64,000 bases of DNA from Hesseltinella vesiculosa (taxonomy: Eukaryota; Mucoromycota; Mucoromycetes; Mucorales; Cunninghamellaceae): contig MCGT01000003.1 in assembly GCA_002104935.1 (NCBI GenBank), forward strand, positions 558,001-622,000, written 5' to 3'. The translations under genes and the position numbers were made by a program. Positions within the stretch are counted from its first letter, which is position 1, and each line of letters begins with the position of its first letter. This document shows positions 10,086-30,466 of the stretch, piece after piece. The notes beneath the pieces are model-generated. The model saw only the letters and a program-made list of their open reading frames with translations, did no database searches and was not told the DNA's origin.

Positions 10086-11267
10086 ATGGGCTGCTGTCAA
10101 TCTGCTGAAGTCATTGAAGAAAAGCAACGCAACAATGCCATTGAACATCAAATAAAAAAGGACCGAGTCAACATGAAGCGTGAAGTCAAGTTGCTGCTGC
10201 TTGGTAAGAAAAAGGGATATACCGTCAAGCTGTAGACTCAGCTTTTTTTTTTCTTAATAGGCGCTGGCGAATCAGGGAAATCAACGATCTTGAAGCAAAT
10301 GAAATTGATCCATGATGGAGGCTACACCCCTGATGAACGTGAAAGCTTCAAAGAAGTCATCTTCTCCAATACCATCCAATCCATGAAAGTAACACTGGAT
10401 GCCATGGAGAAACTCCATCTCGGCTTTGCGGCGCCTGAAAATGAATTCAACGCCAAATTGATAAAAACATATCCTTACCAAGTGGATGAGCTACCCTATG
10501 ACTCTGTCCAAGCTATTTCATGCTTATGGGATGACGACAATGTCAAGAAATGCGTCGCTCGCTCTAATGAATACCAGCTCAACGACTCAGCTGTCTAGTA
10601 AGGGATAAGACAAAAATAGGAAAAATCTCAGCATGGCTGACTTTTCCTTCCCTCCTCTTTCAGCTATTTTGACGCTATCCAGCGCATTGGCCATCCTCAG
10701 TACCTACCCAACGACCAAGATGTCCTGCGATCTCGTGTCAAAACGACAGGCATCACCGAGACTGTGTTTGAAATTGGCGACCGCACATACCGGATGTTTG
10801 ACGTGGGTGGCCAGCGGTCCGAGCGAAAGAAATGGATTCACTGCTTTGAAAACGTCACAGCCATTGTGTTTCTGGTTGCCATTTCCGAATATGATCAACA
10901 GTTGGCCGAGGATTCGAAAATCAATCGCCTGCAGGAAGCTCTGACGTTGTTTGACTCCATATGCAACTCCAAGTGGTTCGTCAAGACATCCATCATTCTG
11001 TTTCTGAACAAAATCGACCTCTTTGCACAGAAACTGAACAAAAGCCCCCTGGCACATTATTTTTCCGACTACATGGGCGGCGACAGCTACGAAAAGGCAT
11101 GCCAGTTCTTGCTCCAGCGCTTTGTTTGTCTGAACAAACGACCTGAAATCAAACAGGTCTACACCCACTTCACATGTGCCACAGACACCAATCAAATCAA
11201 ATTTGTCATGGCTGCTGTCACTGAGATCATCACGCATGACGCTTTGCGGGACGTCGGCTTGTTGTGA
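10086..11267 (+). CDS. Heterotrimeric G-protein alpha subunit
   Basis: GTP-binding switch coupling seven-helix receptors to cAMP or MAP-kinase signalling at the plasma membrane. Exons 10086-10203, 10261-10597, 10664-11267 (352 aa, normal length). It starts MGCC, giving Gly2 for myristoylation and Cys3/4 for palmitoylation. The G boxes are intact: GAGESGKST (P loop, residues 40-48), the arginine-finger segment RVKTTGITE, DVGGQ with the catalytic Gln in switch II, LNKID, and TCATDT. The C terminus reads LRDVGLL and lacks the cysteine four residues from the end that pertussis toxin modifies in Gi-type subunits. The family is certain; which fungal Galpha class it belongs to is not resolved by eye. 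Confidence 0.96.
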
Positions 11268-12465: not shown

Positions 12466-14533
12466 TTAAGCTTCAAGAGCCAGTTGCTCCATGTCTTGTT
12501 CAGAGTAACCCAATAGGTTGAGGACGTACTTGAGACTTTTTTGGTTGATTCTTGCACGAGCTTCTTTTTGGACTCGAGGTTTGGCATTAAAGGCAATGCC
12601 CAGACCAGCCTTGTTCAACATCCACAGATCGTTGGCACCGTCGCCCACAGCAATCACCTGATTCAGGGTCACGCCTTCACTTTGTGCAATCACTTCCAGC
12701 AGTTCAGCTTTGCGAATGCCATCCACAATCGGCCCTGTCGTTTCACCTGTCAAGGTCAAGCCATCCGAAGACACTTGCAGCTAACGAAAAAAAAAAGGTG
12801 TGTCAGGTCGTCCTGCCCATCTTTTTTTTGTCCTATTATCCTACCTGATTGGCAAAGGCATAGTCCAAACCCAGCTCCGCCTTGACGTACAACGCCAACG
12901 GCATAAATCCACCACTGATGACGGCCAGTTTGAACCCGAGTTTCTTCAAGGCAGTGCAGAGGAAGCGCGCACCCTCGGTAAACGTCAGCACCTTTTTCAC
13001 ATCGTCGATCACATTCACACTTGTGCCTTTCAAGAGGGACACGCGGCGCTTTAGTGATTCCTTGAAATCCATGCCACCATTCATGGCTTCCTCCGTGATA
13101 GCCTATATCAAAAAAGCGGGAAAATAGCCGTCAGGATTGTATCCTCCTTTCTCTCTGGAACGTACCGCCACTTGGTCCACCACACCGGCATAGCGGGCGA
13201 TTTCATCAATCACTTCTTGCTGGATCAAGGTGGAATCCATGTCAAAGACGACCAGGCGTTTGTTCTTACGGAACACATCGTCGTGTTGGAGAGCCACATC
13301 GGTGCCATAGCTTGCGGAGAGCTCGATCAATTCCGCACGCAGCTGGTTGATATCCACAGACACAGGCACACTGAGACGGAGGTCGGCCGAGGACAAGACA
13401 GAGTGCTTGTCCAGGCGCGCGAGTTTTTCCACAGAGATATGGTGCTTGAGCAAGAGCTGGGTCCAGTCGCTCAAAAAGGCAGGCTGAAGACCGTTCTGGT
13501 TCAGCAGACTGGCAGCGTACTTGATGCGGCCTTTGTAAGGGGCTTCTTCCAGAGACGAGGGCAAGTAGATGTCTTGAGGCTCATCCTTGTCGACGGAAGT
13601 GAGGGGGGAAGAAGGCGTGGTACCACTGGTGTGACGTACTGTAGGCTCTGTTGCTTGGGAATCAGGCACGTCAAAGGTCAGGCTGGCGTCCCAGCGCTGG
13701 GCGGCGTCGGCCAGATCGCGGAACACAGTGACGTTATCGGACTGCAGGGTGATCAGCACACCAAACGTGACGTTGTGGTACAGACGTGACAACATAAAAT
13801 CTTCGATGGTACAGGGGTGGCGGGCCAGGCAAGTGAGCACAGCGCCGATGATGTCGGTGCCGTGCGGACCGGACAGCGACACGAGCACCTTCTGGTTGGG
13901 GGCGACGTAGGCAGGCGGTAGAGCAGCGTGGGGGGTGATCTTGTTTTGTGAGCGGCTGCGATGCTTGGCCACGCTGGTGGGGGAGGCCAAGGGTGACATG
14001 GACACAGGCTCGGGTGAGGCATGGCTGGTGGCCTGGATGGTCTGCATCACCGACAACTTCAACCGGGTCAAGTCTTGGCCCTGGACAAACGGGCGCTGGG
14101 CCACGCGATGCAAGTAAGGATCAGACAATGACAGGCCAGAATGACGATCATTCTTCTTGAGGATCTTGGTGATGCCGGTGTAGTTCAAAAAGACATATCG
14201 CTCCAGGGTCAGGATGCGTTGCAGGAGTGCCAACGGCGAACCATCGTCTGTCATGAGCGAGGCGGATTCGTGCTGGTAAAACTGATCCACCTTATCGACA
14301 TTCTGATCCAGGGTTTCAATGAACTCCACTTCCAACGATTGCAATTGGCCAAGACGACTCGCCACCACTTGTGCAAATGGCAGGGCTTGGTGTTGTGCAG
14401 GATCGATCTTGATAGAATGGCTGTACACGGAGCGTTTGAGAAATGTTTTCAGGTCTGTATAATCGATGCAATTCCCCGCATAGTCGCTGGGCAAATGTTT
14501 CTTTTGCTCATCCAGGTACTTGCCAAATTTCAT
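12466..14533 (-). CDS. SPX-ACT-phosphoserine phosphatase fusion (SerB/Ser2 type)
   Basis: Catalyses the last step of serine synthesis, O-phosphoserine to serine plus phosphate. Minus-strand exons 14533-13166, 13102-12845, 12780-12466 (646 aa). The C-terminal half is a complete HAD phosphatase: motif I VVFDMDSTLI (nucleophile Asp431), ISGGF with Ser519, and GDGANDLWML (588-596). Ahead of it lies an ACT-like region (about 212-265, VLVSLSGPHGTDIIG). The N terminus is an SPX domain: it starts MKFGKYL, continues with YTDLKTFLKR, LEVEFIETLDQNVDKV and ERYVFLNYTGITKILKKND. Yeast Ser2 has none of this. SPX domains sense inositol pyrophosphates and phosphate, so serine output may be phosphate-regulated (inference). 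The fusion is in one uninterrupted exon, so mis-splicing of two genes is unlikely. Confidence 0.93.
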
Positions 14534-15209
14534 GGTTGAACAAAAGCAGTTGTCGCGATGGAAAATGGAGACAGGAAGAAAAAGATAAGATAGAAAAAAA
14601 AAAGTGGAATCGTCCAAAAGAAGCAATCAACCCCCCAAATTGAGTTTCCGCCATGAGTCATTCAAAGCAAGAAGAAAAAAACAGCGCAGCCAATGAAATA
14701 GCCAGTTGCACTAAGCGCACTCAAATGAACCGCCCGCAGAAAAGAATTTGTCGCTTCTTTCTACAAAGCAAGTTTTCACCTTGGATTTATAGACCAAACA
14801 TGACAAGTCATAGGGAGAGGCATGCGTGAAATAGACAGAATGATATGGATAGTCGCAACTTCTCCAATCTGGAGCATTTTTGTTTAACTGAGGATGACTC
14901 GGGGGCTTGAATTTTTTTTCATGGTTTGGTTTGCCAGACAGTGCTAAGTTTTTATCTAAGAGTCATAGTACAATGAGCAATAGAGATAGGCAAAGAGTGT
15001 TACCTGTATTATTGATGGTTCGCTGCTTCATTTTATATTTCAAAAAGAAAGGTACGTAGTAAAAAAAGGGTTAAGGATGTGATTGGCGGTCATGCTCACT
15101 GGCATTGGCATTGGTTTGATCTTCCGCAACACGCGATTCTTTTTGTTTGTTTGTTTATCAAGGTTCTTCTATCTTTTTCTTTATTTCTGCTCATCTTCTA
15201 TCTTTCCCT
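14534..15209. other. Spacer between SPX-SerB and the Fanzor relic
   Basis: This AT-rich stretch has no reading frame I can support. It contains the SerB upstream region on its left. If the Fanzor relic is part of a transposable element, its left end should lie here, but I could not identify a terminal repeat or target-site duplication by eye. Confidence 0.45.
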
Positions 15210-18200
15210 GATGCAATCGCTTCTTCAGTCCGTCTACGTAACTCTGTGCCACATCCCTGAAGAAGATTTCCGCCGGGCGTTGCCTGATCTGTTGGATCAA
15301 GCTTGGATGACCACCGAACAAATCTACACTGTTTGGTCACAAGCAAAAGTCTATCGCAAACGTAAGTCATCCATCGCTTCAATCATGTCTTTTTCTTTAC
15401 CCATCTTCGTAGGACAGGAAACTGGGCCCACGCCACAACGACGTGCCCAACAACAGGAACAAAACGATCGCGCCGAGGGGAGACGGCAGCGCCAAGAAGA
15501 TGAGCGAAATCCTGATGCTGTGGGACCGTGTGCCACATGCGGCCAAATGGGACACTGTTCGTCTGCCAGCCGCCTCTGTCCTTTCCATCGCACGAACAAG
15601 AAGGATTATATCAATGAGATGATGCCAGGTGGTGAGCGCTACACCATAAAAAAAAGCTTTGAAGATGCCGTCCGGCAGCCTTTCAAGCTCGCTTTGAAGC
15701 GCAACATAGAATCGACCAGCACCTGCAACAAGAACATCCTTTTCCGCCTCCAATTGTTTATCAACCATTTCGCTCTTACTCACCCGTCTGACTTTAAAAG
15801 CATCATGATCAGCCAGAACGGTCTCCTGTCCATCTCGCAGCTCATCTATCCCCGCAACCCGCGGCGACCGGGGATCACCAGCGCTCACATCCTGCGAAGC
15901 CTTCCTCCCACCTTCCTGCCTCACTGGAACTAGTTTGTCCGCGACCACCCAAACATCGTGTACAACCCCAACGACCACCACGGCATGGATCCGCTCGACA
16001 ATGCAGCCCTACTCATTCCTGCTGATGACCGCAGCCTTCACTTCCATCACCCGCATAAATTCTATGGAGGTACTTTTGGGCCATGTTTGTCAACGCTTGC
16101 CACCGCTTACTCCAATTGCTTGGTGATCAACTTTGAGAAAAAGGTCAAGAAGTTTATTCGATTCTCCTTTGCCATCACGGATGTCCAAGTAAGTTTTTTA
16201 AAAGGGCGGTACCAAAAAAGGGAATGTGTTCTGACTTTTTTTTATCTCTTTCAGATCCCTCATATTGACCAGCAGGTGGATGACATCTACACAAACTTCG
16301 CAGAAAGACCCTCCCACCCTCAATCAGAGGTCACATCTGGATCGGCCACAAACAGTGTCCCTGGCGTGTCTGCCGAAGAAGCGGCGATTGCCGATGTGAA
16401 GGCGAAAACACCGGTAAATTTTGTTCCGAAATCCTAGCAGTGCCTTGCTTGTCTACACCAACATCAACAAGCAATACGAGCAGTACAAGTCCCAGCCCAA
16501 TGCTAGCCCCAAAAAATGCCCAAAGCTTACCATCCTTCCTGAGCCCCACTTTGGACGCCGATTCATCCCCATCCTACCCGACACGATCAAATACCTAGCC
16601 GAATGCGATGCTCCTGGTCACGCTGTGGCTACCGCAGGTGGTGAAGCAAGCAACAATGATATGGCTGGTGAACCCGACACCGCATTCATCCGTGCCTTGC
16701 CCATGTTTTTCAAGGTGTTCCACATGGAGAAGTTCAACTTTGGCGGCCCTGGGTACGGGAGGCAAGTTTTGCAGACACCAAAAAAAAAAAAAGAGAGAGC
16801 AATTTCTGATTTTTTCTTCTTCTTCTCGCCTAGTGTCCGGGACATGCTTGCGGGAGTACTATACAACTGTCCATTGTTTGCTTGCCACATTTGGTGCGAT
16901 GGCGTTTCGTGCTGCTTTGAATTTATTCGTTTTCCAACCACGCATCGCTCAACGATGAAGCTGCCCAGCCTGGATCACTGGGATACAGAACTGGTAGAAC
17001 GCTTCGACATGGTCGCCGTGCCATCGTTACTGGCAGCTATGGCACGCCTTATCCACTTTCCATGCTCCGTGAAACCCAGGATGACGAAGATTCTGTTGAT
17101 GAAGAACCTGATGACGATTATGACGAGGAAAAGGTGGATGCAGATGCACCATGCCCTGTACGTGCTTCCCTGCCTTTACACCAACAACAGGACTTTGACA
17201 ACGCCACTGACAGCGCTGATTTGGAACAAACAAGCCTCATCAGCATGCCTTTGATTGGCAGTGCTGTACCTACCACCCCAGACCCCCCGTCTCGCCATCT
17301 GCCTTACCGAGTCATCAAGGTATCAGCAAAGGAATATCGCTCGCAATGTGGAACGCAGCGACGAATTCAACAATTGGAACGACGCAAGGTTTCCACGACA
17401 TACTCTTTCCGAGGTCAGCAATTACCGTTCCATCAGCTGGAGGCTGCCATCCCTTCCCACCGAAGCACCAGCGCCTCCGAATATGCCATCCGAATCCAAT
17501 ACCTGCTCGATCGTCTCCCGCTCTTCTTCGACTTTTACGGCCTTCAGCATTCCATCGACCGCTTCAATGCTTACAGAGGGCGCCAGCGGGGTGTTGCATA
17601 CGTTGCCAGTGTTCCTGCTGGCCTGTCCAAGAAGTATGTCAAGTCCCAGCGCAATGTGCGTGGCCACCGCAAACGTACCCACCGCAATCGGCGCAAGCAT
17701 CAGAAGAAAGCTCGGAAGAAAATGGCCTTCAAGATCAGCAAGGCCAAGAAGGCGATGGTGGAACACCTTGCCGCGCTGGATGTTTCTATCGTGAAGACCG
17801 AAAATCTGCTAAAATGCTCTGCTGGCTCGATGCTACCTGGGACGATGGATCTATGGGAAGCAACATTACATACCATGCGCACCCAATGCGACCTCGACCG
17901 TGACCACCGCATTGATCTGATCAATGAAATGGAAGAAAAGAGGCAAGTTGTCGTAGTATTCAGGAGGTCCAGGTGGGCTTATTTTTCTATTGTAGACCTG
18001 CACCGCAAATGAAGCCAAACACACGCATTTGTCACGGTGTGACAAAGTTTCCCAGCGAAAGAGTTCCATTAATACTCTTTGGTGATGGCCTCAAGGGCCG
18101 GAAGGTCGCCGCCCCGCTCAAAAAGCAACCTCCTGGCTCGTCTTCCCTGGTGTTTGACCAATTGGAAAACCTACAACGATAGGGCAAGCTTGCTGTTATC

Positions 18201-18491
18201 TCACTGAATGAGTTCAAAACAAGCAAGGTGGGTAAAAAAAAAAAAGGCATGTCAGCAACGAGGTGGCTCATTCTTCTCTGCTCTATCTGCCATGGCACAA
18301 CCAAAAACCTAGTCGTGAATGGTGGCAAGATTTATGGACTTCTGCGCTGCAGCTCCTGTGCGGTCATCTTTGACCGGGATGTCATGGCGGCCTGCAATAT
18401 GGTGTCCATTGGTCAACACTTTTTCCAACACAAGCAACACCCCCTGGCCTTTTGCCCACGCCGACGCCCTCCAACCTCTCGTATCGCTTAG
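15210..18491 (+). pseudogene. Degenerate Fanzor (eukaryotic TnpB-like RNA-guided nuclease)
   Basis: The reading frame passes through introns at 15362-15412, 16189-16254, 16762-16833 and 17943-17995; the last two are GC-AG. An N-terminal zinc knuckle (CATCGQMGH...LCPFH) comes first. Then WCDGVSCCFEF (about 16,890-16,930), an acidic linker, and the RuvC region: IKVSAKEYR, EAAIPSHRSTS, YRGRQRG, LILFGDG, LNEFKTSK with the likely catalytic Glu in the position used by Fanzors, and a CSIC...CSSC zinc finger leading to DRDVMAACN (RuvC-III). RuvC-I is unclear; a PDPPSRH segment may be its decayed remnant. Two in-frame TAG codons (15931-15933, 18180-18182) and unexplained frame shifts near 16,420 and 16,950-17,060 mark it as broken. 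Fanzors are known as OMEGA-type RNA-guided DNA endonucleases carried by transposons. The start at 15,210 is my choice. Confidence 0.87.
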
Positions 18492-18515
18492 TTTTCATAT
18501 TTATTCACCAAAGCA

Positions 18516-18612
18516 ACCCTGCAAAAGGGGTTACCGTCTGCTCTGGCAAGAACGTGTTTAATGCTTTTATCCGGTTGCTGGTGCTTTAGCCAACACTTAA
18601 CACACGTTCTGA
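18516..18612 (+). ncRNA. Candidate Fanzor guide-RNA (omega-RNA) scaffold / element right end
   Basis: It begins about 25 nt after the Fanzor stop. A 13-14 bp stem pairs 18549-18561 with 18597-18610, with one bulge; the arms read AGAACGTGTTTAA and TTAACACACGTTCT. Inside its loop GGTTGCT (near 18573) can pair with AGCCAAC. A small hairpin (AACCC...GGGTT) lies just upstream near 18517-18535. Known Fanzor guide RNAs are transcribed from the 3' end of the element and are structured, so position and fold fit. No expression evidence exists here, so this is a candidate only. Confidence 0.4.
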
Positions 18613-20450
18613 TTGGTAACGGAGTTTTCTTTTTTTCCATAGTGGAACCTTGTCACCTGGATCGCGTAGGTTGAAACCCTTTTTTTTTATCCTTTTTGGT
18701 CGGTGCAGTGTTGCTTCCTTGAAATGTTCTTGAAAGACGAAAATAGCAGTTTATTTTGAAAAGGCAAACACATGATAGTTTATTGACATTATTTGGAAGG
18801 ACGCCAGTAACGCGCGATAGGGATGGCGTGGTGATGAAAAAAGGATGTGGGATAAACCAAAAAAAAAAAAAATGGAGGATGTGCCGTTTTAGCAAACGGC
18901 AGCGAAAAGATGATCGATGGAGCAATAGCGGGCTGAATTTGCTTACAACCAAGCCTACTCACGCGCACACATGAAAAAAAAAAAAGGAAAAAAAGCACGG
19001 TGACAAGGAACACGTTAACCAGCTTCTTGCTAGCTCTGGTTCTGATGATTGTTGCTTTTGAAGGGGAAGATTAGATAAAACAACATTTTTTTGCCTCTCA
19101 TTAATTAAAAAAGAAGTCAGTGTTGAATTGTTCTTTTTCTTTAAAAAAAAGTCACTGTCAAAAACCATAGCTGAAAGATGCAAAAGCTCGCTAACTTGCA
19201 TAGGCACATCCCGCCAAAAACCTATATATTCCCTTGCACACTCTTGCCCGCTTCACGATATGCTTCTGTCACAAACGGTCAAAGAATCATTGGACTGTCC
19301 TGCTTTAACATCAAGCCTTGGCCGACATTGCTTCTCATTTGTTCATATATACAGTAGCCATCCTCTGAAAAAAAAAATTAGTCTTTTCGTTTTATGAACA
19401 TGCTTGGTTATTTCACAATTTATAACCAGGCCTATTCACACGTTTGTCAAAGCAAGAAAAGCAATAAAACGAGCAGAGGAACTTGCTTTAGAATATTATA
19501 TCTTATATCAATCATATCTGGCAAAAAAAAATATATATATATATATATATACGGGCTTTTTTTATTTGGACTTTGGCTTGCTCCATTCTCATCTTTCCCT
19601 ACCATAAGGATGTTGGAAATGAGAAGTAACTTCTTTTTCCCAGTCACTCACTTTTCTTTTTTTAATCTACTGCTACAGCGTTTGCAGTATGTAGCAATCA
19701 AGTAAACAAAAAAAAACTAGTCATTACCGCCACCATTCTCTTTCATCGTTTTATTTCTTAAAATTTTAACTGTCTAAAGAAACTAGAAAGAATGCCAACT
19801 CCTAGCCCATTTTCATGGTTGCCCAGGTGTGACTACGTGGAAGTGGTTGGCTTACACACCCTTATGACTTCTGTTTTGAAGCGGAAGAGAAGCATAACCC
19901 GCTTGGGGAAGACGAAGAAAACCATTTATGATTTTTCCTTTTCGCGTTTCATAACCGGTAAGGACATAAAGCTCCTCGAGCAAAGACAAAAACCGTGCCA
20001 TCCTACCATCCTGTCCATCCTTCCTCCTTCCAGCCAACGGTCAACGGGAAAAATCACCCTGGAATACGAGCCGAGAGCCGGGCCTGGGGTTTCCCGCCAT
20101 AAGTTCGTCAAGCTTATGACTTGTTTCCCCAGGTCTTGAGTTTGCTAGGCCATTCAAACCATAAATTAGGTTCCCACCGCAAAAATGTTAGTAAACTTTG
20201 TTATACTTTTTGTTTTGTGTTTACCTGCTTCTTTTGTCCTTTCCTTGTGATGTCTAACAGGAATGGAAAACATACGAGTGAGAGTAGCTGTGCTCAAAGC
20301 AGTTTTTTTTTTTTTTTTTTTGTGGGGTATTTGGGATTCCGCACCAAATAATCACGTGATCAAAAAGCTTCGCTCTAATGATATTTACCAACGCTGCATC
20401 TTTGTTTTTAAACAAAAATGCCAGGTTTAGCCCAACTTAAAAAAGATGGT
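18613..20450. repeat. AT-rich repeat-bearing spacer; copy of the 18.8/25.0-kb dispersed repeat
   Basis: There is no supportable gene. The segment 18,805-19,040 recurs in the same orientation at 25,045-25,360. The copies share an anchor near CGCGATAGG.ATGGCGTG, then GATGAAAAAAGGATGTGG, then GCTGAATTTGCTT.CAACCAAG, and diverge by point changes and homopolymer length. The remainder shows nothing I recognise apart from T and A runs and a short AT microsatellite near 19,530-19,550. Confidence 0.6.
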
Positions 20451-20452
20451 TA

Positions 20453-21240
20453 CCCAGGTATGACCACGTGGAGGTACTGACATGCATACCCATCAATGAC
20501 ATGACTTTTTTTCTTGTAGGAAAAGTTTCTTGGCATTATTTGGTTCTTATGGACCTTGTTCTTATGGACCTTGCTTGGCCTGGTTCCAGCGGGTTCTTGA
20601 GTGAAGAAAAAAAAAGGAAAAATCAAAAAACATGCCTTTTGACCCTGAAAAAAAAAGAACTGAGGAGGCAGTCAGCTGGTCATAAAAAGGTGCCAAACTA
20701 AAAAGGGTAAAGAGAGGGTTTCAAATGGAAACTCAATTTTCGGTTTAATTTCCAAACAGAGCTAAATTAACTATGTTTGACATAATAGAGATCTACATTC
20801 TCCTGGTCTGTGCTTGACATCTTTCATTTCAAAAAGATAGCCTTCTTTTTTTTTGAACAGTAGCAAGCTCCCGCTTCCATTTTGCTTGTTTTTGGTCGTT
20901 TTGACAAAAAAACAGCAGAGGAATTCTGGTTACACAACTACTTGAGAGCATGTTTCTCGGCTAGTTTCATTGCTTTTCCAACGTTATGCTTCCCTACGGA
21001 TAGCCTTGGTTCGTAGCTTTAAAATGAATCTAAACACGCCTAGGCAATACCACCCCATTGTGGAGTAATCGCAATAAACAGTAAAGGACAACCAAAAAAT
21101 CATCAAGAAATTGGTGGGAAAAAAAGGTGACTGAAACCAAGAATGTTCTATTGTTGTACCAATAGGAAATCACTTTGTCCCCAGAATGGGCAACGATCGA
21201 TCTGCTGATCGATCTTGATTGCGTCGTTTCAAATCCCCTT
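20453..21240. repeat. Dispersed repeat family R1, copy 1
   Basis: Matches 31,566-32,250 in the same orientation over most of its length. Shared anchors are GTTACCCAGG, GACCAC.TGGAGGTA, TGCATACCCATCAATGACA, TTTCTTGTAGGAAAAGT and CTACATTCTCCTGGTCTGTG. The copies differ by indels in homopolymers and scattered substitutions. No coding capacity is evident. Confidence 0.75.
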
Positions 21241-21309
21241 TTTTTCCCCATTTTTTTTTTGGTTGTCCCATTTCTGTTTACTACGATAAATCGACAGTGC
21301 TGTGGCATT

Positions 21310-21890
21310 GAAAAGGCGTTCTTGGTTTCATTTTAAAGATTATAACCTAGAGCATCCATAGGCACATAGAGGGTAAGAAAAGTATTAAGCTGACAGAGTA
21401 AAGGGCTCTCACGTTATTTTTACCAAAATTCTTTAGCTATTTTGAAGAAAAAAAAAACCGCAAACGCTCTCAATAGAGATCTGCTCTTTGCCAGTTATCG
21501 AGACAAGGCACCTCTTTTATCATCAAATAAATTTAATGATGATGCTTCTTGAAAGACATTCTTCAATGACAAACAAGGAAAAGCCGGCAAAGCATTGCAG
21601 AATTGAAAATAAGGCACTCGTTTCTCAAGAGGTCGTTTTTTTTTTTTTTGCTCCCAACGAGGAAACTTCCCTTTAGTCTTTTTCATTTCATGCAGTTTAA
21701 AAAAAGTGCCAGTAACTAGCCCAACTAATAAGTTGGTTGCCCAGCTATGACCACGTGGAGGTAGCTGGCGTACATACCCTTTTTGATTTCTGCCCAAGCG
21801 AAGGGAGGTGCAGGATGAAAAAAAATGGCAATCACCGCTTTTTCGTGTTCTAAGAAGCAATTTTTTGGTTGGTTGACAACGACTTAACAT
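21310..21890. repeat. Dispersed repeat family R2, copy 1
   Basis: Its reverse complement is found at about 31,030-31,510. Anchors are GACAGAGTAAAGGGCTCTCA here against TGAGAGCCCTTTACTCTGTC there, and a GCAGAAATCAAAAAGGGTATGTACG motif mirrored near 21,770-21,795. A more diverged partial copy lies at 25,555-25,690 in the same orientation as this one. It lies directly beside an R1 copy in both places. Confidence 0.72.
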
Positions 21891-22864
21891 CGGTTGTGAT
21901 CGACGCGTTGCGCACAGACCAATGGCAACCCAATTGCTCGTTGAATTTCCAAGCAGAGCTAAATTAAATATCCAATCCTGCTTCGCTCTTCCCTTATTTT
22001 TCAGCCTCCTCTTCGTTCGGCGTTTTTTTTTTGAACCTTTTTTTCATGGAGCTGTTTGTTTCTTTCGTTATTTTTTTATCCTCATTTTAATGGTGTCCAA
22101 TGTGTTTGACAATAGCAGCGGATAAACTGTCAAAAGGGCAACGGCAGCGAATATTTAGCCATAATGAGAAATTATCTTGCCAATTAATCAACATGGCTCG
22201 GTGTCAGCTTTTTTTCGACCTTTCTAGTGCCACTTTGAATTCATGTCGAAATTAATGAATATTCTATTTTTTTTATTTTACAAAACCCTTAACGGTTCTA
22301 GCAGACGTAGAAACAAGAAAGCCCCTGCCATTGAACATGAGCATCTATGCCCTTAACATGGACCTATAACCCGTTCTGTACATCGGTTGCCATGGTGTGG
22401 TGATGTGCACATCACTGGACTTTTGGATTCGATGAGCACCTGATTTTACTCAAATTTGATGTAAATATTAACATAAACACCCTTTCAGTAGACATGAAAA
22501 AAGGGACGGACTACGCGATTGCTCAAGCCAGGCAGGCAGGGTAGAGGAAGCCACGGTGGTTCTCCACCATTTGAAGACAGCATGGGCGTTCATCGCTGAC
22601 TTGTGTCTGTCATGATTTCTAGTTCATGTTTTCGTGCGTGGTCTGCTGCCACTTCTCCTAGAATAGAGGGGCCGTCTAGGCAGGGATTTTGGCATTGCAT
22701 TTTTCGGCGTCCTCATCATTGCGATCTTTGTGAGACCGTGTGCTTGCACGTATGAATGTTTTTTTTTTTTTTGCTGGCGTCTATGGGCAAAACAGACAAA
22801 AGGAGCCGATACCCTCTAGCCCTTCCTTCTGATGTGTAAGATAGATGCAGTTTAAACTAAGGTC

Positions 22865-23200
22865 ATTTCTGAACATTTTTTATTGGTATGCAAAATTTGG
22901 CGTGAATAATATATAGTGATTTTGTACTGCGATCGTCTGGGGGTTCCCTGGTGAAAATGGCCGATTTTTCAACTTTTTTAGCTGATGAGTCGGAGGTGCC
23001 AAAACGAAATCGACCAAAAGTTGGCTGGGCGACCTTGACGAATCGACCTGGTATTTGCAGGATTGTCTTTACTCATACATCTCAGCGCCCATACAAAATA
23101 TCAAATCGATCCAATCACTCCAAAGTGCTGTTCATCATACTGCTTTTTTTTTTCAAAATGAAAAAGAATTTGGATGGCCATATTTAACCTCCGCACCGCC
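22865..23200. repeat. MITE-like repeat family A, copy 1
   Basis: Shares a roughly 300-bp order of anchors with 36,580-36,890, 49,420-49,755 and, inverted, 49,930-50,175. The anchors are GATCGTCTGGGGGT, TGGTGAAAATGGCCGATTTT, GTCGGAGGTGCCAAAACGAA, AGTTGGCTGGGCG, then a T-run and AAATGAAAAA. It has no coding potential. Non-autonomous element status is inferred from copy number and size. Confidence 0.7.
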
Positions 23201-25044
23201 CTTTCGATTCCTGATCGAGCACAGAAGCCTGGTGCTTGTCCGTGGATACTGCCCTGCCTATCAAAATGTGATCCAGATGTCGAAAGCGTAACCAATTGTC
23301 TACAAACTATTCCTATGTATCCGTTTCCTCTTCCCGTGTCGTACCTAGTCCAGTGACGACCGTTTCCTCGTCCAGAGCAGCTCCAAAACATTGACGATTT
23401 GAACTGGTGCCACCTTTTTCTGGAGACTGCACGAACGGTTGATCTGCAAGCCGATCTTCTGAATACATCAGATTTTCCTTTTCCAGGCACACAACAGTCA
23501 TGTCGTGGTTTTCCCAATTGACGTGCCTGCTTTTAAAAACATTTCTGAGGCTGAAAAAAAAAGCAATGCTCACGCCAGATGATTGAGTAAATCCATTCAT
23601 GAAGTAAACGTCTATAAGATCATGCGAGTGCCAGATTTAGCGATAAAAATGGACTTGATGACAATGATTTGCTGCCTTGGTGTGAGCTGATAAAAAACTG
23701 CAGAGGCGCTGCAATTTCGGAACAAACACGCGTGGATGATCTGAAAATTTTCCAAGCATCTTACATTCTTATTTTTCCATCCTCTTACACGCCATCCCTG
23801 TCAAAAGAACGATATTATCCTTTTATGTTCAGATTCATAATAACTCTTGCAAATAGCACTATTGCCTTGCTCCAATGCAGAAAGGATGCAAGTCGGTCGT
23901 TGACGGAATGAAGAAAGATTAGCATCGAGCTCTGCAGATCATGGCGAGAGCAAAAGGCATGATTGCTTGACATTACGATTAAAGATGTGATACTGTTACA
24001 GTTCTTGTCTTTTCTCTATTATTTTCAACGGCGGAAAGGAACAAGGACGTTCAGAGAAAAAAAGAAAAAAAGGTGATCGCTGAAGAAAAAAATGAAGGAA
24101 GGCGAAACGCGATTGGCTAAATTAATTTATCTCTGTTTGGATGTGAACCGACAGTTTGGTGCTACTGGTCTGTGCACTGCACGTCTATCATCATCAATGT
24201 TCGTGTCATCATTGTCATATTTCCAGAAAATAGCTTTTTGAACAAGAACAAGCGACAGCCATGGCTTTGCTTGGTTTGGACATACACTCGGTGTCACCTC
24301 AATTGCCTGAACCTCCTTGGTTCTCACTGGTTCCCACACAGAAGTCTAAAAAAAAAAAAGATAAAGAGTATACCCTGTCAATTATATAAAATCATAAAGT
24401 TTATTCCTACCTATCGTGTTGAAAAAGTAGCTGGGATGCATAATGGCAAGAAAAAATGAGGCTACTTTAGAAGCCATCTCTTTCACGGTTAGCAAACATT
24501 GGGGAATAAAAGAGAAAAATGGGATTTGAAACTACGCTATGGTAAGTTGATCCTGGTGACGAAGAGCTTTCCTCAAGAAAGCATTCCTTCACCCCTCCCC
24601 CCATTCTTTTCTTTTTCCCACATCATTTATTTTTGGTCTTTTCGTAACATTTTCACATGAAACGATAATGGAAAGCTTTTCGTAAAAAGCCCTGATTTCA
24701 TTTCAAAGACTGAGAAGATCAATAAACCTGACTAGCAATCTACATCTAAATATTTCGGCAGCAGTGTTTTTTCGAGCCAATGACTTCACCTATTTACATA
24801 GGTTGTATGAATGGAAATAAGGCAGTCTGTTAATGACTAAACACAGTTGCATTTCTTGTTTACTTGAAGTCATGCATTCGACCTGTTGAGAAAAAAAAAT
24901 AGAGAGGTGAGGCGTAGCAGAAAATGGACTAGATGGCCTGGGGCTTTTTTTCCTGATACTTTTTGCTGTCAATTCTGGTAACACAATCCTTTTGACCATT
25001 CTCCTTTCTAAATGTTTCAGTTCGACGTTTTCGTAAAGATATGA
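23201..25044. repeat. Repeat R4 copy 1 and unassigned AT-rich sequence
   Basis: The segment from about 24,130 to 25,030 resembles 26,165-27,245 in the same orientation. Shared blocks include CTTCACCCCTCCCCCCATT, CCCACATCA.TTATTTTT.GTCTTTT, TTTTCACATGA and GAGGTGAGGCGTAGCA. A shorter related piece is at about 30,700-30,880 (ACTGGTCTGT...CCAGAAAAT). Positions 23,201-24,130 show no gene. Confidence 0.6.
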
Positions 25045-25700
25045 GCAACGCGCGATAGGAATGGCGTGATGATGAAAAAAGGATGTGGGATAAAGCCAAA
25101 AAAAAGGGGGGTTGCGTTGGTTTGCCGTTTTAGCAGCGAATGATTATCGATGCAATGGTGGGCTGAATTTGCTTGCAACCAAGTCTACTCACACGCACAT
25201 ATGAAGCTAGAGTAGAGCCGAATTTGGTGAAGGAGTAGGGTTGAAAAGGATTGTGTCACCAAGTTTGAAAGGGCATGAAAAAAAAAAAAAGCTTGGTGTC
25301 ACATCTTAAAACTCGTGAGCAAACAAAAAAAAGCAAGGTGGCAACCCCTTAACCAGCTTCTTCTTGCAAGCTAAAAAAATGTCTCCATTGTTCTTCAATC
25401 ATGTGAAAATAAAAATAATGGGGGGACTCGCTTGTCCATGGCCATAAAAACGGAAATCAACATGTCACCGGGACTACACTGTCACTGCATTGTTTCAATC
25501 CCCTTTTTTTCCCATCGCTTTATTCATGATTTTTTTGGCTCTGTTGCTCTTCTCATTTTAAAGTTTAGACCAAGGCTATCTACGGACATGCATAGATAGA
25601 GTAAAAAAAAGGCGTTAAAACCGACAGAGTAAAAGGCTGTCAAGTTACTGTGTTACCAAGTTTCTTCACCTATTTTGAAAAAAAAAAAAACTTGAAACAT
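25045..25700. repeat. Copies of the 18.8-kb repeat and of R2
   Basis: 25,045-25,360 repeats 18,805-19,040 directly. 25,555-25,690 is a diverged direct copy of R2 (21,340-21,475), sharing AAGGCG/GTATTAA..CGACAGAGTAAA.GGCT and CACCTATTTTGAA. The two are separated by unique sequence. Confidence 0.6.
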
Positions 25701-25789
25701 TCTTCAAATAAACCAAATCATGATTTTACTTCAAAAAGTATAAAAAAGAGGCCATTCTGTCGACTTTCTCGTTTTTTTTTTTTTTTTCA

Positions 25790-26115
25790 CCGGTGGATAC
25801 GAGGGTGGCGAGACCCCTTGTTTCCACCAAACGCTGCTTTTTCTCGTTGTAAGGGTAACCTTCTGCGGCTCCGAGTGGGGTGATTCCTACGCGATCACTC
25901 TTTGGTGCTAGGGCCGGCTAGCACCTTCACATCTTGGAGTGAACATTCGATATCCTAATGGCCGAGGGGTTGCGCCCTTGGAGCTAGGACGTCTGTTCTT
26001 TTAGCTTGGCGTACTGGTAGGCAAGTATCCCCCGCTTACCCTCCAGGTGGAGGGGCCTCCGTAGGGAGGCGGCCAAGGGAACATGCCACCCGTTGGCTGG
26101 CAGGCTATCGGGAAT
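25790..26115. other. GC-rich, hairpin-rich island of unknown identity
   Basis: This block of about 320 bp is clearly richer in GC than its AT-rich surroundings. It contains several clean hairpins: GGTGGA...TCCACC (25,791-25,826), GGTGCTAG...CTAGCACC (about 25,905-25,926), CCTCCAGGTGGAGG and CCTCCGTAGGGAGG (about 26,040-26,070). No reading frame of note crosses it. It could be a fragment of a retrotransposon 5' leader or a structured RNA; neither is shown. Confidence 0.45.
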
Positions 26116-26164
26116 CCGACAACAAGGAAAAAAAATACAGTGAAATGAAAAAGGTCTTCAATTG

Positions 26165-27245
26165 AGATTTCCCTTGAGATTCACCTGTTCCCACAGAGCA
26201 GTCTGAAAAACAAAAGATAAGGAGAAAGTCCTGTCAATAATAAAAATATTGAGTCTAGGATATTTCTTCCTATTATGTTGAATAACGAGTTGGAATGCAG
26301 AGACTCTTGTTCACTGGATGGCAACAAAAAAGAGGCTGCTTTGAGAAATGTATGCATTTTTTTCTGCTATCTCTTTCATTCTTTGCAAATGAGAAATGCT
26401 TAACTGAAAGCATGGTGATGGTTATTTATTTGGAGATAACGAGATATCATTGCAAAATCAAATGTGTATTGTGCGAGAGCTTGCGCGAATGCTCTTTGTC
26501 AAAACAGCTGAGGCATGATGGTAACACCGCAAATTGAAGGCTTGCTAGTTGGTCAGTGTTAATGCTTTACAAGCTTTATGCATGCCTATGGGAACCGTTA
26601 GTTATAAGCCTGAAAATGAATCCGAGAACGACCAGTCAAGACCATTTCATTGTCGTGCAAACGTACGAAGCAGTGAAAAAAAAAAACGATGGGAAAAAAA
26701 AAAAGAGAAAAAGATGGATTCAAACTACGCTATGCAACGCGATCCCGCTGACAAAGTGCTTACCATTTATGAATGCGTCGACAGTCGATCGCAGTAGAAT
26801 ACACTTCTTCACCCCTCCCCCCATTTTTTTCTTTTTCTCACTTTCCCACATCAATTATTTTTAGTCTTTTTGTTTCATTTTCACATGATTGAACTACAAA
26901 TGCCTCGTAAAAAGTCCCTGATTTTTATTTTAAAGAGCGAGAAAACCATTAAACTGGCTGGGCAAATTGCCACCAAGCATTGTAATCGATGTTTGCTCAA
27001 GTCTATGGCTTCATGCTTTTTTAAGGTCTTATGAATGGAGATAAGACATGATGCTAGTGGCGAAACTTTGTTGCTTTTCTTGTTTATCTGCAAACCATGC
27101 ATTGGAGCTGTTGCGACAAAAAAAAAAAAAAAGAGGTGAGGCGTAGCACAAAATGGATGGAAGGCCTCGAAGAGCAGCCGCCAACTTTTTCCTGACACTC
27201 AAAGTCGGTAACACAATCGTCCATTCTCCTTTACCAAATTTGGTT
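26165..27245. repeat. Repeat R4, copy 2
   Basis: Direct counterpart of 24,130-25,030. The TTCACCCCTCCCCCCATTTT block falls near 26,810 and the GAGGTGAGGCGTAGCA block near 27,135. Short open frames inside are shadows without family resemblance. Confidence 0.6.
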
Positions 27246-27982
27246 CAGTTCAAACTATTATTCGTTGCCGTTTAAGCAAAGGGAGAAGAAGTATCCCCCC
27301 CCCTGCTTTTCAATTTTTTTCCCACATCCTACTGTATTTCGTCAAGGCATTCCTATACCCTTTTGTTAAGTGATAACTACAGATGCTTGTTGTAAGCCTT
27401 TGATTACTTGGTAATTGGTTCGTTCATGGCTGTCTACAGGCAAGTTGAACATGTGAAAAGAATTGAAACTGACGAAGGAGCATGTTGGTTGCACTCTTCA
27501 TTTTGTTGGCGGAAAAAGTTAAAAAGCCAAAAAAAAAAAAAAAACGGCCGCGAGCCCTTGGGCAACATGACTTTTTTTTGTATTGTCTTGCAGCTCCGCC
27601 GCTGGTACTAAGGAGGTAAAGAAAAGGAAGCTACAATGGATGGCCAACAATGCTTTGTAGCCCGTTATAGATTGGTATTGGACCTTGGGAATCAAGACGC
27701 AGGCAAGAGTGAAGTCCTATCAAGAATGGCGAAGTTCCCAGCAAGAGGTCAATGGTCAGCAAAAGCCCCAGACACCAGCCATTATGTGGTCGCTGAATGG
27801 CACTTGATTTTTCGAGGGCATCTGGGGAGTAATGTACACAGCAGTGGCGGATTGACGATAATTGGAAATGAACAAAGTGTGGTTGCCATCACGAACATAG
27901 TGGGAGTACCTGTCAATGACATCATCACTGTTGAAGAAAAAAAAGTGTATCACGATGGCTGGTCTGCTTTTTTTTTTAAGCA

Positions 27983-28890
27983 TACACTGATGTCACTGAT
28001 AGGTGACAATCCTTTGCGATATAAGCCAGTGGGATGGCATGGTTGGTGTAGCTCATCTTCGACAATATGGGTGGAACATCCGCAACGTAGACACCAGAAG
28101 CTGCGCGCCTCATCAACGACAGGATCATGGCGATCCCCAAGACAAAGCGAGAGCGCCAGTTGTAAAGTAGATATTCATCCGTCGCAGCAGGGTAGGTGAT
28201 GATAGTGTTGCCCATAAAATCAAGCTTTTGCGAAACAAGAACCACAGCAAGATTGTGCACAAGTTCTGGCATTCCCCTTCACTGGCACACATATTTTGCT
28301 CTTTCTTCCGCTTACATGCCTACAGCTTTTTCTACCTATATCTCCTCAACGAGTCATTGAACAACCCTCGTAAAACTAGGAATTTACTCATCCACCATGC
28401 CTCTACATCGACCATCCATACATTCGTTTTTGCCTCCGTCATTCGCTCACTCTGCCATTTTTTGTAGTGATCTTTTTCTTCCAAATCGGGAACCGTAGTC
28501 TTTCACCCGTTGTCATGGGTAAAACCTCGCAATTGTTATTCAATCCTTCTGAAAATTGGGCTGTCACCTATAAAATATATCTTTTAGTTGTGGTTTCAAA
28601 GAAAAGTCTTTAGCTCTCCTAGACCAAAAAATCGATGTTTTTACAATCCTAGGCTTGTATCAGTCAAGGCAGAGCAAAGCAGTCTACGAATAAAAAAGCC
28701 TGCCCTGCGATTTTTTTTTTTTTTGTCTTGGAGATCGTCATGATCCTGTCGTTGAAGAGGAGCCGTGCAGCTTTTGGTGCCAAAGTTGCGGATGTTCCAG
28801 TCATTTGCTTGAAGATGAAGTACATGTGCCATGTCATTACCCTCGTTTCGATCGCTGAGGATTGACGCCTGAGAATGACACCTGTGCAAA
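27983..28890. pseudogene. Two inverted coding-like fragments of an unrecognised gene
   Basis: On the minus strand near 28,160-27,980 a frame reads VLGIAMILSLMRR, VADVPPILSKMSYT and IAKDCHLS. On the plus strand at 28,722-28,870 a related frame reads VLEIVMILSLKRS, VADVPVICLKMKYM and IAED. The resemblance persists at protein level across about 50 residues, which suggests once-coding sequence. I do not recognise the family. The fragments sit next to pieces of the long terminal repeat seen at 37.5 kb. Confidence 0.4.
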
Positions 28891-29030
28891 TTAAATTAAA
28901 AAAAAACCACGACCCTTTCTTCTGCTTACAAGCCCACAGTCTTTCCTACCCATATCTCTTCAACCAGCCATTGCATAACCCTTGTAAAACCATGTCTTTA
29001 CTCATTCACCCTGCCTCTACGTTGGCCACC
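28285..29030. repeat. Fragments of the 4-kb element's long inverted repeat
   Basis: 28,390-28,660 is the reverse complement of 37,485-37,740: shared CCTAGGATTGTAAAAACATCGA, GGTGACAGCC, CACCCATGACGACGGGTGAAAG when read on the other strand. 28,905-29,030 repeats 28,290-28,430 directly (TTCTGCTTACA.GCC.ACAG, ACCCATATCTCTTCAACCAG). These look like remains of a second, broken element of the 36.9-40.9 kb type. Confidence 0.6.
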
Positions 29031-29036
29031 CATATA

Positions 29037-30466
29037 CCGTGCCCCAAAAAATTGTTACAATTTTCGGAGTTTTTGTCTTTGCATCAACCTCTCTCGTTAT
29101 CAACAGTATCATAATCACTATCTTTTATATATTTGATAGTGTTGTTAAATAGCTTTCTATACATATAAAAATATCTTCACTCAGTTGGATAGATCTCGAG
29201 TAATGCTGGTTTGAAAAAAAACAGACATTGTAACAATTTTTTGGCTGAGCTAAAGCCCAACTGTTTTTTTTTATTCAATACTTGGTGACATCACCTTTGG
29301 CATCAAGAACCGCTTGTAGACAGCGGGGCATGCTGTGAACAACCTTTTTGCAAAGGTCAGAAACTTCAGGGAGCTCCCACACGTCTTGAAGACGGTCCAA
29401 AAGGTCATGCGTACCAGTGGGGGGCTTGTCGTAGGCAGCAAGCAGTTGTTTGACCTTTGCCCATACGTTTTCAATAGGATTGAGGTCAGGAGAGTTGGTG
29501 GGTCAGTCAAGGACCTTGACACCTTTCTTCTTGTACCATTCTTGGGAGGCCTTGGCGGTGTGCTTGGGGTCAGAGTCCTGCAACAAGAAGGTCCGCTCGA
29601 TGTCCATCTCGTACCACTCCAAGGTTTCAGGTAGTCGACCTCTATGATGGTCAGGAAGAGCTCGGTGTTCATGTTCCCTTCAATCCAGGCAAGGAACCCA
29701 ACGCCATGGCCAGTTATGGCGCCCTACACCATGACACTGCCGCCACCAAACTTCTTTCTTCGGATCTTGCCATGTTTACGCGTAGGCTGGTCAACCTGCT
29801 TCCAGAACCGTTGCTTCCCATCAGAGCCAAGGAGGTTCACCTTGGACTCGTCAGTGAAGACAACGTTCTCCCAGTCGGCTTCAGCCCACTCCAGATACTT
29901 CTTCGTAAACTCAAAGCGCTTGCGTTTGATCAATGGTGAGACTACGGGAGTGATCTCCTTGCGTTTGGAGATCATGTCATTGGTGCGCATTAAGTTGCGA
30001 ATCATCTGCGGATGGACTTTGGCGTCATAGTTGGCATTGACTACCTTGGAAGCAGCTGTGGCAGTGGTGTGCTTGCCAGTTTCGACCTCACAGAACAAAA
30101 GCCGAGCAGTGCCATCACTGATCTTGCTTGGGTGGCCAGCCTTCAGGTCAATGCAATGCTTAATTACGAGGCAATGCGACTGATGGTGGCGGTTGACACG
30201 CCTGCGCGAGCAGCCATAGCACGTACAGACAGGTTGTTGTCGTAGCTTCGTAATAAAGACTCGATATCCTTGGTTTTTTGAACGCTGATTGATCGCATGA
30301 TGTCTAATGTAATGGAGCATTAGTTACGAACAAGACAGACATTAGATTAACATGCATTGACCTTTCAGTAGAATAATATAAAATGGTAAGAGAAAAAAAA
30401 AGGAAAAAAACAAAAAAAAAGACCTTTTTTTGCAAGCCACAGCACAGCCCAAAAAATTGTTACAAT
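29037..30466 (-). mobile_element. Tc1/mariner element, decayed
   Basis: A Tc1-like end motif with the core CCCAAAAAATTGTTACAAT occurs three times. At 29,037-29,061 it is preceded by TA, the usual target dinucleotide, and reads outward-in as an element end. At 29,227-29,246 it is inverted. At 30,445-30,466 it is in the first orientation. The last two flank the transposase pseudogene as an inverted pair. The outer right end is not recognisable, so the true boundaries are uncertain. Confidence 0.7.
29275..30298 (-). pseudogene. Tc1/mariner DD34E transposase pseudogene
   Basis: Read from 30,298 leftward: N-terminal helix-turn-helix (MRSISVQKTKDIESLLRSYD ... AARAGVSTATISRI), then after a frame change the catalytic core. 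Catalytic Asp 1 is in VFTDESKVNLL, Asp 2 in LLQDSDPKHTA, Glu in SPDLNPIENVWA, with 34 residues between the last two. The C terminus is AKGDVTKY, typical of the superfamily. Two conserved Trp codons have become stops: in VMV*GAITGHG (TAG) and in VLD*PTNSPDL (TGA). At least two frame changes add to the damage, so it is not functional. Confidence 0.9.

Follow-up and report, generated by a model that had tools for sequence, protein, structure and literature searches.

In a 64,000-nucleotide stretch of the genome of the fungus Hesseltinella vesiculosa (contig MCGT01000003.1, positions 558,001 to 622,000; the whole of this stretch is called the window below), we found what is very probably an inactivated copy of a multicopy Fanzor1 transposon, a carrier of an RNA-guided nuclease family that would be retained through guided cutting and would move in trans. 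The span of the element, the structure of its gene, the catalytic motifs, the open genes of its sister copies, the low ratio of nonsynonymous to synonymous substitutions (dN/dS) among them and the lesions of the window copy were all established directly. An earlier note on the window had recognized a Fanzor in the interval 15210-18491 and taken it for a relic. The identity was borne out and can be narrowed to type 1, while the status of a relic fits the window copy only, as the family comprises at least 24 loci, has an open spliced frame in 12 of 20 sister copies and shows a dN/dS well below 1.

A 4-kb element with a six-exon gene

Upon aligning 20 sister loci to the window copy with blastn, we observed that the similarity started at 14670-14693 and ended at 18646-18656 in every one of them, i.e., within 23 bp and 10 bp, respectively, of the borders 14670-18646. 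The element, at about 4 kb (~4.05 kb in the sisters), thus exceeds the interval 15210-18491 given in the earlier note, which is the coding part, running from the ATG at 15211 to the stop codon at 18489-18491. The element and the parts of its gene are as follows.

14670..18646, + strand: whole Fanzor element, window copy (~3.98 kb; own left tip lost; from blastn against 20 sister loci and left-tip comparison)
15211..15361, + strand: exon 1, with the ATG at 15211
15362..15412, + strand: intron 1, GT-AG
15413..16188, + strand: exon 2, with a CxxC...H...C cluster and an in-frame TAG at 15931-15933
16189..16254, + strand: intron 2, GT-AG
16255..16761, + strand: exon 3, with a 35-bp deletion at 16415 in the window copy
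16762..16833, + strand: intron 3, GC-AG in the window copy, GT-AG in 12 of 20 sisters
16834..17942, + strand: exon 4, with the WED motif (C)DGVSCCFEF, the RuvC-I region (DPG deleted), KEYR and YRGRQRG
17943..17995, + strand: intron 4, GC-AG
17996..18227, + strand: exon 5, with FGDG, the displaced-Glu motif NEFKTSK and an in-frame TAG at 18180-18182
18228..18275, + strand: remains of intron 5, acceptor missing in the window copy
18276..18491, + strand: exon 6, with the four-cysteine zinc ribbon, the RuvC-III Asp (DRDVMAACN) and the stop codon at 18489-18491
18492..18646, + strand: right end, with the terminus CCATAGTG, then GA; present in 20 of 20 sisters

The five short introns lie at the same positions in all 21 aligned copies, with GT or GC donors except for an AT in intron 2 of copy L023 and in intron 1 of copy L030, and with AG acceptors everywhere except in intron 5 of the window copy. 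Given this conservation in the sisters, we mostly rejected mutation as the source of the frame changes, of which at least two had been counted before: what had looked like frame changes is for the most part five ordinary introns, alongside two genuine frame-breaking deletions, one of 35 bp at 16415 and one of 16 bp at 17013. The latter removes the RuvC-I DPG motif, a loss that the first reading had missed, and a further deletion takes the acceptor of intron 5, such that the Glu codon of NEFKTSK is present with an acceptorless intron behind it. Two TAG codons had likewise been reported, and two are indeed in frame; a third on the reading path, at 16435-16437, is out of frame and comes into view because of the 35-bp deletion. 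With the in-frame stops, both deletions and the lost acceptor, the copy is clearly broken, as had been proposed. Its closest relatives, L037 (96% identity) and L030 and L033 (both 95%), are all broken too.

Sister copies with open frames

Searching the 27.05-Mb, 85-contig genome with the exon-3 protein piece (window 16448-16954) returned 59 matches. When those with at least 60% identity were merged with their neighbours by eye, the count of family loci came to at least 24 including the window copy, all such counts being lower bounds. Twenty of the 23 sisters were fetched as 10-kb stretches (L021 to L040), two further ones by their ends only (L041 to L044) and one by its left stretch only (L045), which showed no left end. 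The copies are 88-98% identical. The intact sisters for which the earlier note had suggested looking do exist in the same genome: 12 of the 20 (L021, L023, L024, L026, L027, L028, L029, L031, L034, L036, L039 and L040) have an open spliced frame of 999-1013 aa, in each case with an ATG start and a stop codon. The number of candidates for working genes is at most 11, because L023, although open, has the AT donor in intron 2 and lacks the displaced-Glu fingerprint described below. A relic of a single lost gene was rejected on the strength of the 24 loci and the 12 open sisters, and retroposition of a spliced message was rejected since all five intron sequences are kept in each of the 20 sisters.

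Across the 66 pairs of open copies, the median dN was 0.037, the median dS 0.141 and the median dN/dS 0.255 (range 0.146-0.457). Among close copies, the untranslated leader and first exons (window 14691-15520) belong to the most conserved parts, with a mean identity of 0.96-0.985. As a side observation, L024, L034, L035 and L036 share a diverged block from the end of exon 4 to exon 6, with an intron 4 of 63 nt as against 51-53 nt, and the L024 and L036 proteins read IKKIEDLV where those of L029 and L039 have IVKTENLL or IMKTENLL; this block marks either a distinct subfamily or an exchange between copies.

The protein carries the marks of a Fanzor1

In the unspliced window, the last exon alone gives a notable family match. 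The piece 18183-18491 scored 21.8 bits (E 2.2e-4) against PF07282, the TnpB/Cas12f-type C4 zinc ribbon, which is under the curated cut-off of 26.3, and 21 bits (E 1.3e-4) against the NCBIfam model of IS607 TnpB, for which the cut-off is 350. A spliced sister reached 34.3 bits (E 2.7e-8) against PF07282, with no further Pfam family at E 1 or better. The zinc-ribbon profile search, suggested beforehand as a check, thus exceeds the cut-off with the spliced sister and stays below it with the window piece.

A search of the PDB with a five-sequence profile matched the zinc ribbons of LaTranC (1.5e-5), L79 (2.8e-5), Cas12m (8.1e-4) and Cas12g (0.0044), with a weak match to the Guillardia Fanzor1 (0.11). 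With a single sequence, the search found the TnpB-like protein L79, which we take to be a mimivirus protein, at E 0.047, and aligned its NEYLTTKTCSNC with the NEFKTSKLCSIC of the family. The motif set listed in the earlier note (DGVSCCFEF, KEYR, YRGRQRG, FGDG, NEFKTSK, the CSIC/CSSC finger and DRDVMAACN) is present in full and in order on the + strand. Its N-terminal zinc knuckle holds up less well: the cysteine cluster is there, but it matches zf-CCHC weakly (E 0.22), and its last cysteine is spaced unlike that of the canonical knuckle.

The family has a single recognized protein product of ~1,010 aa, an RNA-guided nuclease of the TnpB/Cas12 type by its motifs, with the displaced Glu as that of RuvC-II. 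DPG is found in all 12 open sisters, and in 11 of them (the exception being L023) it is followed by E-x6-CxxC-...-CxxC-...-D. This corresponds to the Fanzor signature as described in PMC10711439, DPG together with a displaced Glu six residues before the first CxxC, and the displaced catalytic Glu proposed for NEFKTSK agrees with it. The order D - [TS][TS]xx - C4 finger - RD is found in the family as well. The same genome encodes two further Fanzor-like proteins, L061 and L062, whose fetched fragments align with the family at 46% and 25% identity. While the L061 row of the alignment covers the exon-4 part only, L062 extends through the zinc ribbon, and DG, DPG, FYG and YRG are kept in all five rows. 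Relative to L062, the family has extra sequence inside RuvC.

Two observations accompany this. Inside RuvC, residues ~570-650 of the L029 protein are acidic and include prolines, with PTTPIPQ towards the end of the stretch; it may be the equivalent of the cyclophilin-binding FRI insertion in the Parasitella protein PpFz1, or it may not. Furthermore, the whole genome gave 89 TnpB/Cas12f zinc-ribbon matches at E 0.01 (125 candidates scored), which, judged by eye together with the identities, perhaps amount to half a dozen Fanzor-like families in 27 Mb.

A fixed right end and a variable left end

Complete copies start with CACTATGGAAAATTTGAGAAG and end in ...TTTTTTTCCATAGTG, followed by GA, with a 12-bp inverted repeat, CACTATGGAAAA, at both ends. 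The element is a defined unit with inverted ends, and not an IS607-type carrier. In L021, every open reading frame of 100 aa or more inside the element is a Fanzor frame or overlaps one, except for two antisense frames at the ends (the frames were not scanned for families), and no recombinase gene was recognized in this listing, made without a family scan.

The copies agree sharply at the right end and vary at the left tip. Of 34 right ends, placed by a pattern of which the terminal G is part (L053, L055, L058 and L060 were dropped, their ends not being placeable), 33 have an A after that G. Comparing the flanks of 24 loci (the window copy, 22 of the 23 sisters and, from outside the 24 family loci, the internally deleted relative L047), we found direct repeats of 10-12 bp, all starting with GA, at four (L028, L031, L038 and L039), all of them with a left tip that is truncated or replaced. 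The other 20 loci gave 0-5 bp, and the maximum among 552 mismatched flank pairings was 8 bp. In 11 of the 18 loci with a readable left end, a GA stands at one and the same offset on the left side, compared with 0-2 at the other offsets counted. Eight loci (L022, L026, L027, L029, L035, L036, L037 and L047) have a complete or nearly complete tip with GA at or next to this offset, and three of them, by eye, show the same 4-bp GANN at their two borders. Two complete copies, L024 and L025, have no left GA, and in L032 it is one base off.

Older relatives (L046 to L051) have large internal deletions and a preserved right end, L047 joining element positions near 562 and 3750; they are possibly short non-autonomous derivatives, from a sample that is biased by its query, as it was found via the right end. 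Insertion near CCAAT boxes had seemed apparent by eye, but the idea did not survive counting (23 in 6.3 kb near the element versus 243 in 71.4 kb far from it, p 0.40). Joining the flanks to look for insertion into long open frames gave a frame of at most 224 aa across the site (L038), followed by 189 aa (L028) and by no more than 135 aa in the other 19 of 21 loci.

Objections and competing explanations

By analogy with known Fanzors, a guide RNA, DNA cutting, retention and movement in trans would most likely act together in this family. A transposase acting in trans would recognize the short inverted ends. The Fanzor protein would load an RNA that is transcribed from the right end onwards into the neighbouring host DNA, and the loaded protein would cut empty target sites, upon which repair would copy the element back. 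Such copying back at cut sites would favour retention and would explain the selection on the protein.

Several observations weigh against the reading of the window copy as part of an RNA-guided Fanzor1 family that is kept by selection and moved in trans. They begin with the protein: its RuvC-I Asp and TS pair are 386 residues apart (L029), beyond the 125-275 residues given in the literature for the D-to-[TS][TS] distance (PMC3627910), a range that we did not take as defining because the validated Fanzor1 PpFz1 carries a RuvC insertion of ~100 aa (PMC11423790). The WED motif reads CDG and not TDG, the same column being TDG in L062 and SDG in L061, and none of the 7989 protein-database candidates scored for residues 400-1013 reached E 1e-3. 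The right end is where, by analogy, one would look for a Fanzor guide RNA, and it folds unremarkably: window 18482-18646 gave a fold z of -0.31, with 69 of 200 shuffles at least as good, the consensus fold of 34 right ends was near-empty (-2.6), and Rfam had no match in the window. A structured right-end RNA was thus unsupported by the single fold, the consensus fold and Rfam alike, and because no right-end structure could be shown, the guide RNA is carried over from known Fanzors. Nor is the right end more conserved than the rest, its mean identity among 21 close copies being 0.955 versus 0.88-0.985 elsewhere in the element. Part of the reason for a dN/dS below 1 can lie in an ancestor copy that was under selection, and nearest-neighbour values were 0.16-0.46 for open versus 0.13-0.48 for broken copies, with the window copy highest at 0.48; because these ranges overlap, the contrast between open and broken copies is weak. 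Finally, the left-end, right-end and end-pattern searches found no transposase with these ends, ten one-mismatch right-end matches having been left unread, and movement in trans is argued by exclusion because of this result.

The overlap in dN/dS would also suit a family that is dead or dying as a whole, its open frames left over from a recent burst and no nuclease working now. The same can be said of the broken state of 8 of 20 sisters in addition to the window copy, of the divergence of up to 12% between copies, and of L023, open yet without the fingerprint and with an AT..AG intron 2. Against this stand the 12 open sisters and a dN/dS that is low in the closest open pairs too (0.21 for L021/L029 and 0.26 for L021/L026). 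We consider the death of the whole family rather unlikely; the Fanzor family is probably not dead, though the window copy is.

The pattern of ends bears on how copies are made. The fixed right end, joined exactly before GA, and the variable left tip suggest, tentatively, a one-ended replicative route (rolling-circle-like or recombinase-like) and not cut and paste; we hold this route to be a possible alternative, although the less likely one. This interpretation is drawn from the ends and the duplications: the 10-12-bp GA-starting repeats occur at loci whose left tips were all replaced or truncated, and the left GA recurs at its fixed offset in most readable loci. It also finds parallels in the account of Bao and Jurka, who describe 5'-truncated Fanzor Helitrons with duplications and complete ones without, as well as Mucor MCi-2, whose 5' ends are fuzzy and whose duplications measure 11-12 bp (PMC3627910). 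On the other hand, the 12-bp inverted repeat at both ends resembles that of cut-and-paste elements, the GANN shared by both borders in three of eight loci might simply be a short duplication of the usual kind, and the searches turned up no partner bearing these ends. The genome has a single Helitron_like_N match at E 1e-5 (C9:517097-517381), which lies away from the element, and the features of a Helitron2-type element are lacking, with this one match elsewhere and with inverted repeats at the very ends instead of asymmetric ones. A MULE (MuDR-type) transposase encoded elsewhere in the genome is an unlikely mover of the family. The genome does contain seven MULE matches at E 1e-5, and Fanzor elements with MuDR-like ends and 9-bp duplications are described from Rhizopus, Phycomyces and Mucor (PMC3627910), but none of the listed end-pattern matches lies within 20 kb of the seven (the MULE ends themselves were unread), and the duplications here are 10-12 bp long and absent from most of the 24 loci compared. 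Very unlikely, in our estimate, is a novel one-ended copying in which the right end is joined before GA, the left is variably completed and Fanzor itself makes or chooses the target break; if this were true, the element could do without a transposase, and this would be what keeps the protein under selection.

The searches behind the argument for movement in trans gave the following. All 19 exact right-end pattern matches fell on loci of the right-end search. Of 20 one-mismatch matches, 10 lay outside known loci. Exact and one-mismatch matches together numbered 39 versus 5 in the control, from which about 5 such matches are expected. The ten outside matches are at C2:488323, C3:719203, C7:234502, C8:94989, C12:1118269, C12:1414203, C25:181364, C25:239801, C39:34798 and C56:949749. 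The left pattern at one mismatch was at background level (41 versus 37 in the control). The left-end search, with 73 bases of element and 230 of flank as the query, gave two loci without a right-end match beside them (C21:241770 and C56:243904).

Genomic surroundings

To the left of the element, the window contains the following.

10641-11264: match to G-alpha, left of the element
13106-14626, - strand: gene with SPX and ACT matches, adjoining the element on its left, such that the element lies just upstream of the gene

By eye, the latter gene also contains a phosphoserine-phosphatase motif. To the right, window 21000-29000 is highly repetitive: 6.4 kb of it recurs with 96% identity at C1:161403-167805, and other parts recur in many places. 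With genes on the left and repeats at 21000-29000, the earlier placement of the element at the border between a gene-dense and a repeat-rich part is roughly right. Further right, window 29727-30323 (- strand) matches a Tc3-type transposase helix-turn-helix below the curated cut-off.

Relation to known Fanzor elements

Fanzor1 in Mucoromycota is already known: Bao and Jurka (2013) list 10 Fanzor1 families for Mucor circinelloides, 4 for Rhizopus oryzae and 3 for Phycomyces blakesleeanus (PMC3627910). The present family resembles these in its motif order, its transposon-borne nature and the presence of several families per genome, and Mucor MCi-2 offers a further likeness, having duplications of 11-12 bp that begin with a fixed motif, and fuzzy 5' ends (PMC3627910). 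The present family differs from them, as compared by description and not by sequence, in its ends CACTATGG...CCATAGTG, its GA target and its ~1,010 aa in six exons. SpuFz1 of Spizellomyces, on the element SPu-1, is likewise a Fanzor1 from a fungus, has a D-E-D site and occurs in many copies with inverted repeats, but it is described as a single open reading frame of ~2.1 kb for 633 aa, with 33-bp inverted repeats and a putative TA duplication (PMC10432273, PMC3627910). Like the family described here with its extra RuvC sequence relative to L062, the Parasitella PpFz1 has an additional RuvC insertion, the FRI domain, which the account in PMC11423790 gives for Parasitella and Rhizopus only; no Parasitella-labelled chain was among our PDB search matches. 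The Fanzor Helitrons CRe-1, CRe-2 and CRe-3 of Chlamydomonas share the well-kept 3' end, the variable 5' end, the multi-exon gene and duplications mostly in truncated copies, whereas their ends are of the Helitron2 type with a TTTT target, as opposed to the inverted repeats at the very ends and the GA target seen here (PMC3627910). The zinc ribbon is shared with IS607 TnpB and Fanzor2, and DPG and the displaced Glu are described for pro-Fanzors and Fanzor2 (PMC10711439), while the protein of ~1,010 aa is far longer than the 431 positions of the IS607 TnpB model. No published description of the present family was found in the literature searched, which was mostly without subscription papers and without the supplementary sequences of PMC3627910.

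As the discovery of a system, the finding is ordinary, since Fanzor1 families were already on record for Mucor, Rhizopus and Phycomyces in 2013 (PMC3627910); what it adds is a further member of this kind, whose protein is unusually long and whose pattern of insertion is unexplained. The length of the protein and its extra RuvC sequence deserve attention in view of another fungal Fanzor, which has a cyclophilin-binding insertion in RuvC (PMC11423790). Fanzors are tools in the making. With 24 loci, 12 of 20 sisters open, readable ends and a partial pattern of target duplications, the Hesseltinella family offers a good natural series for the movement of Fanzor elements and the retention of their nuclease.

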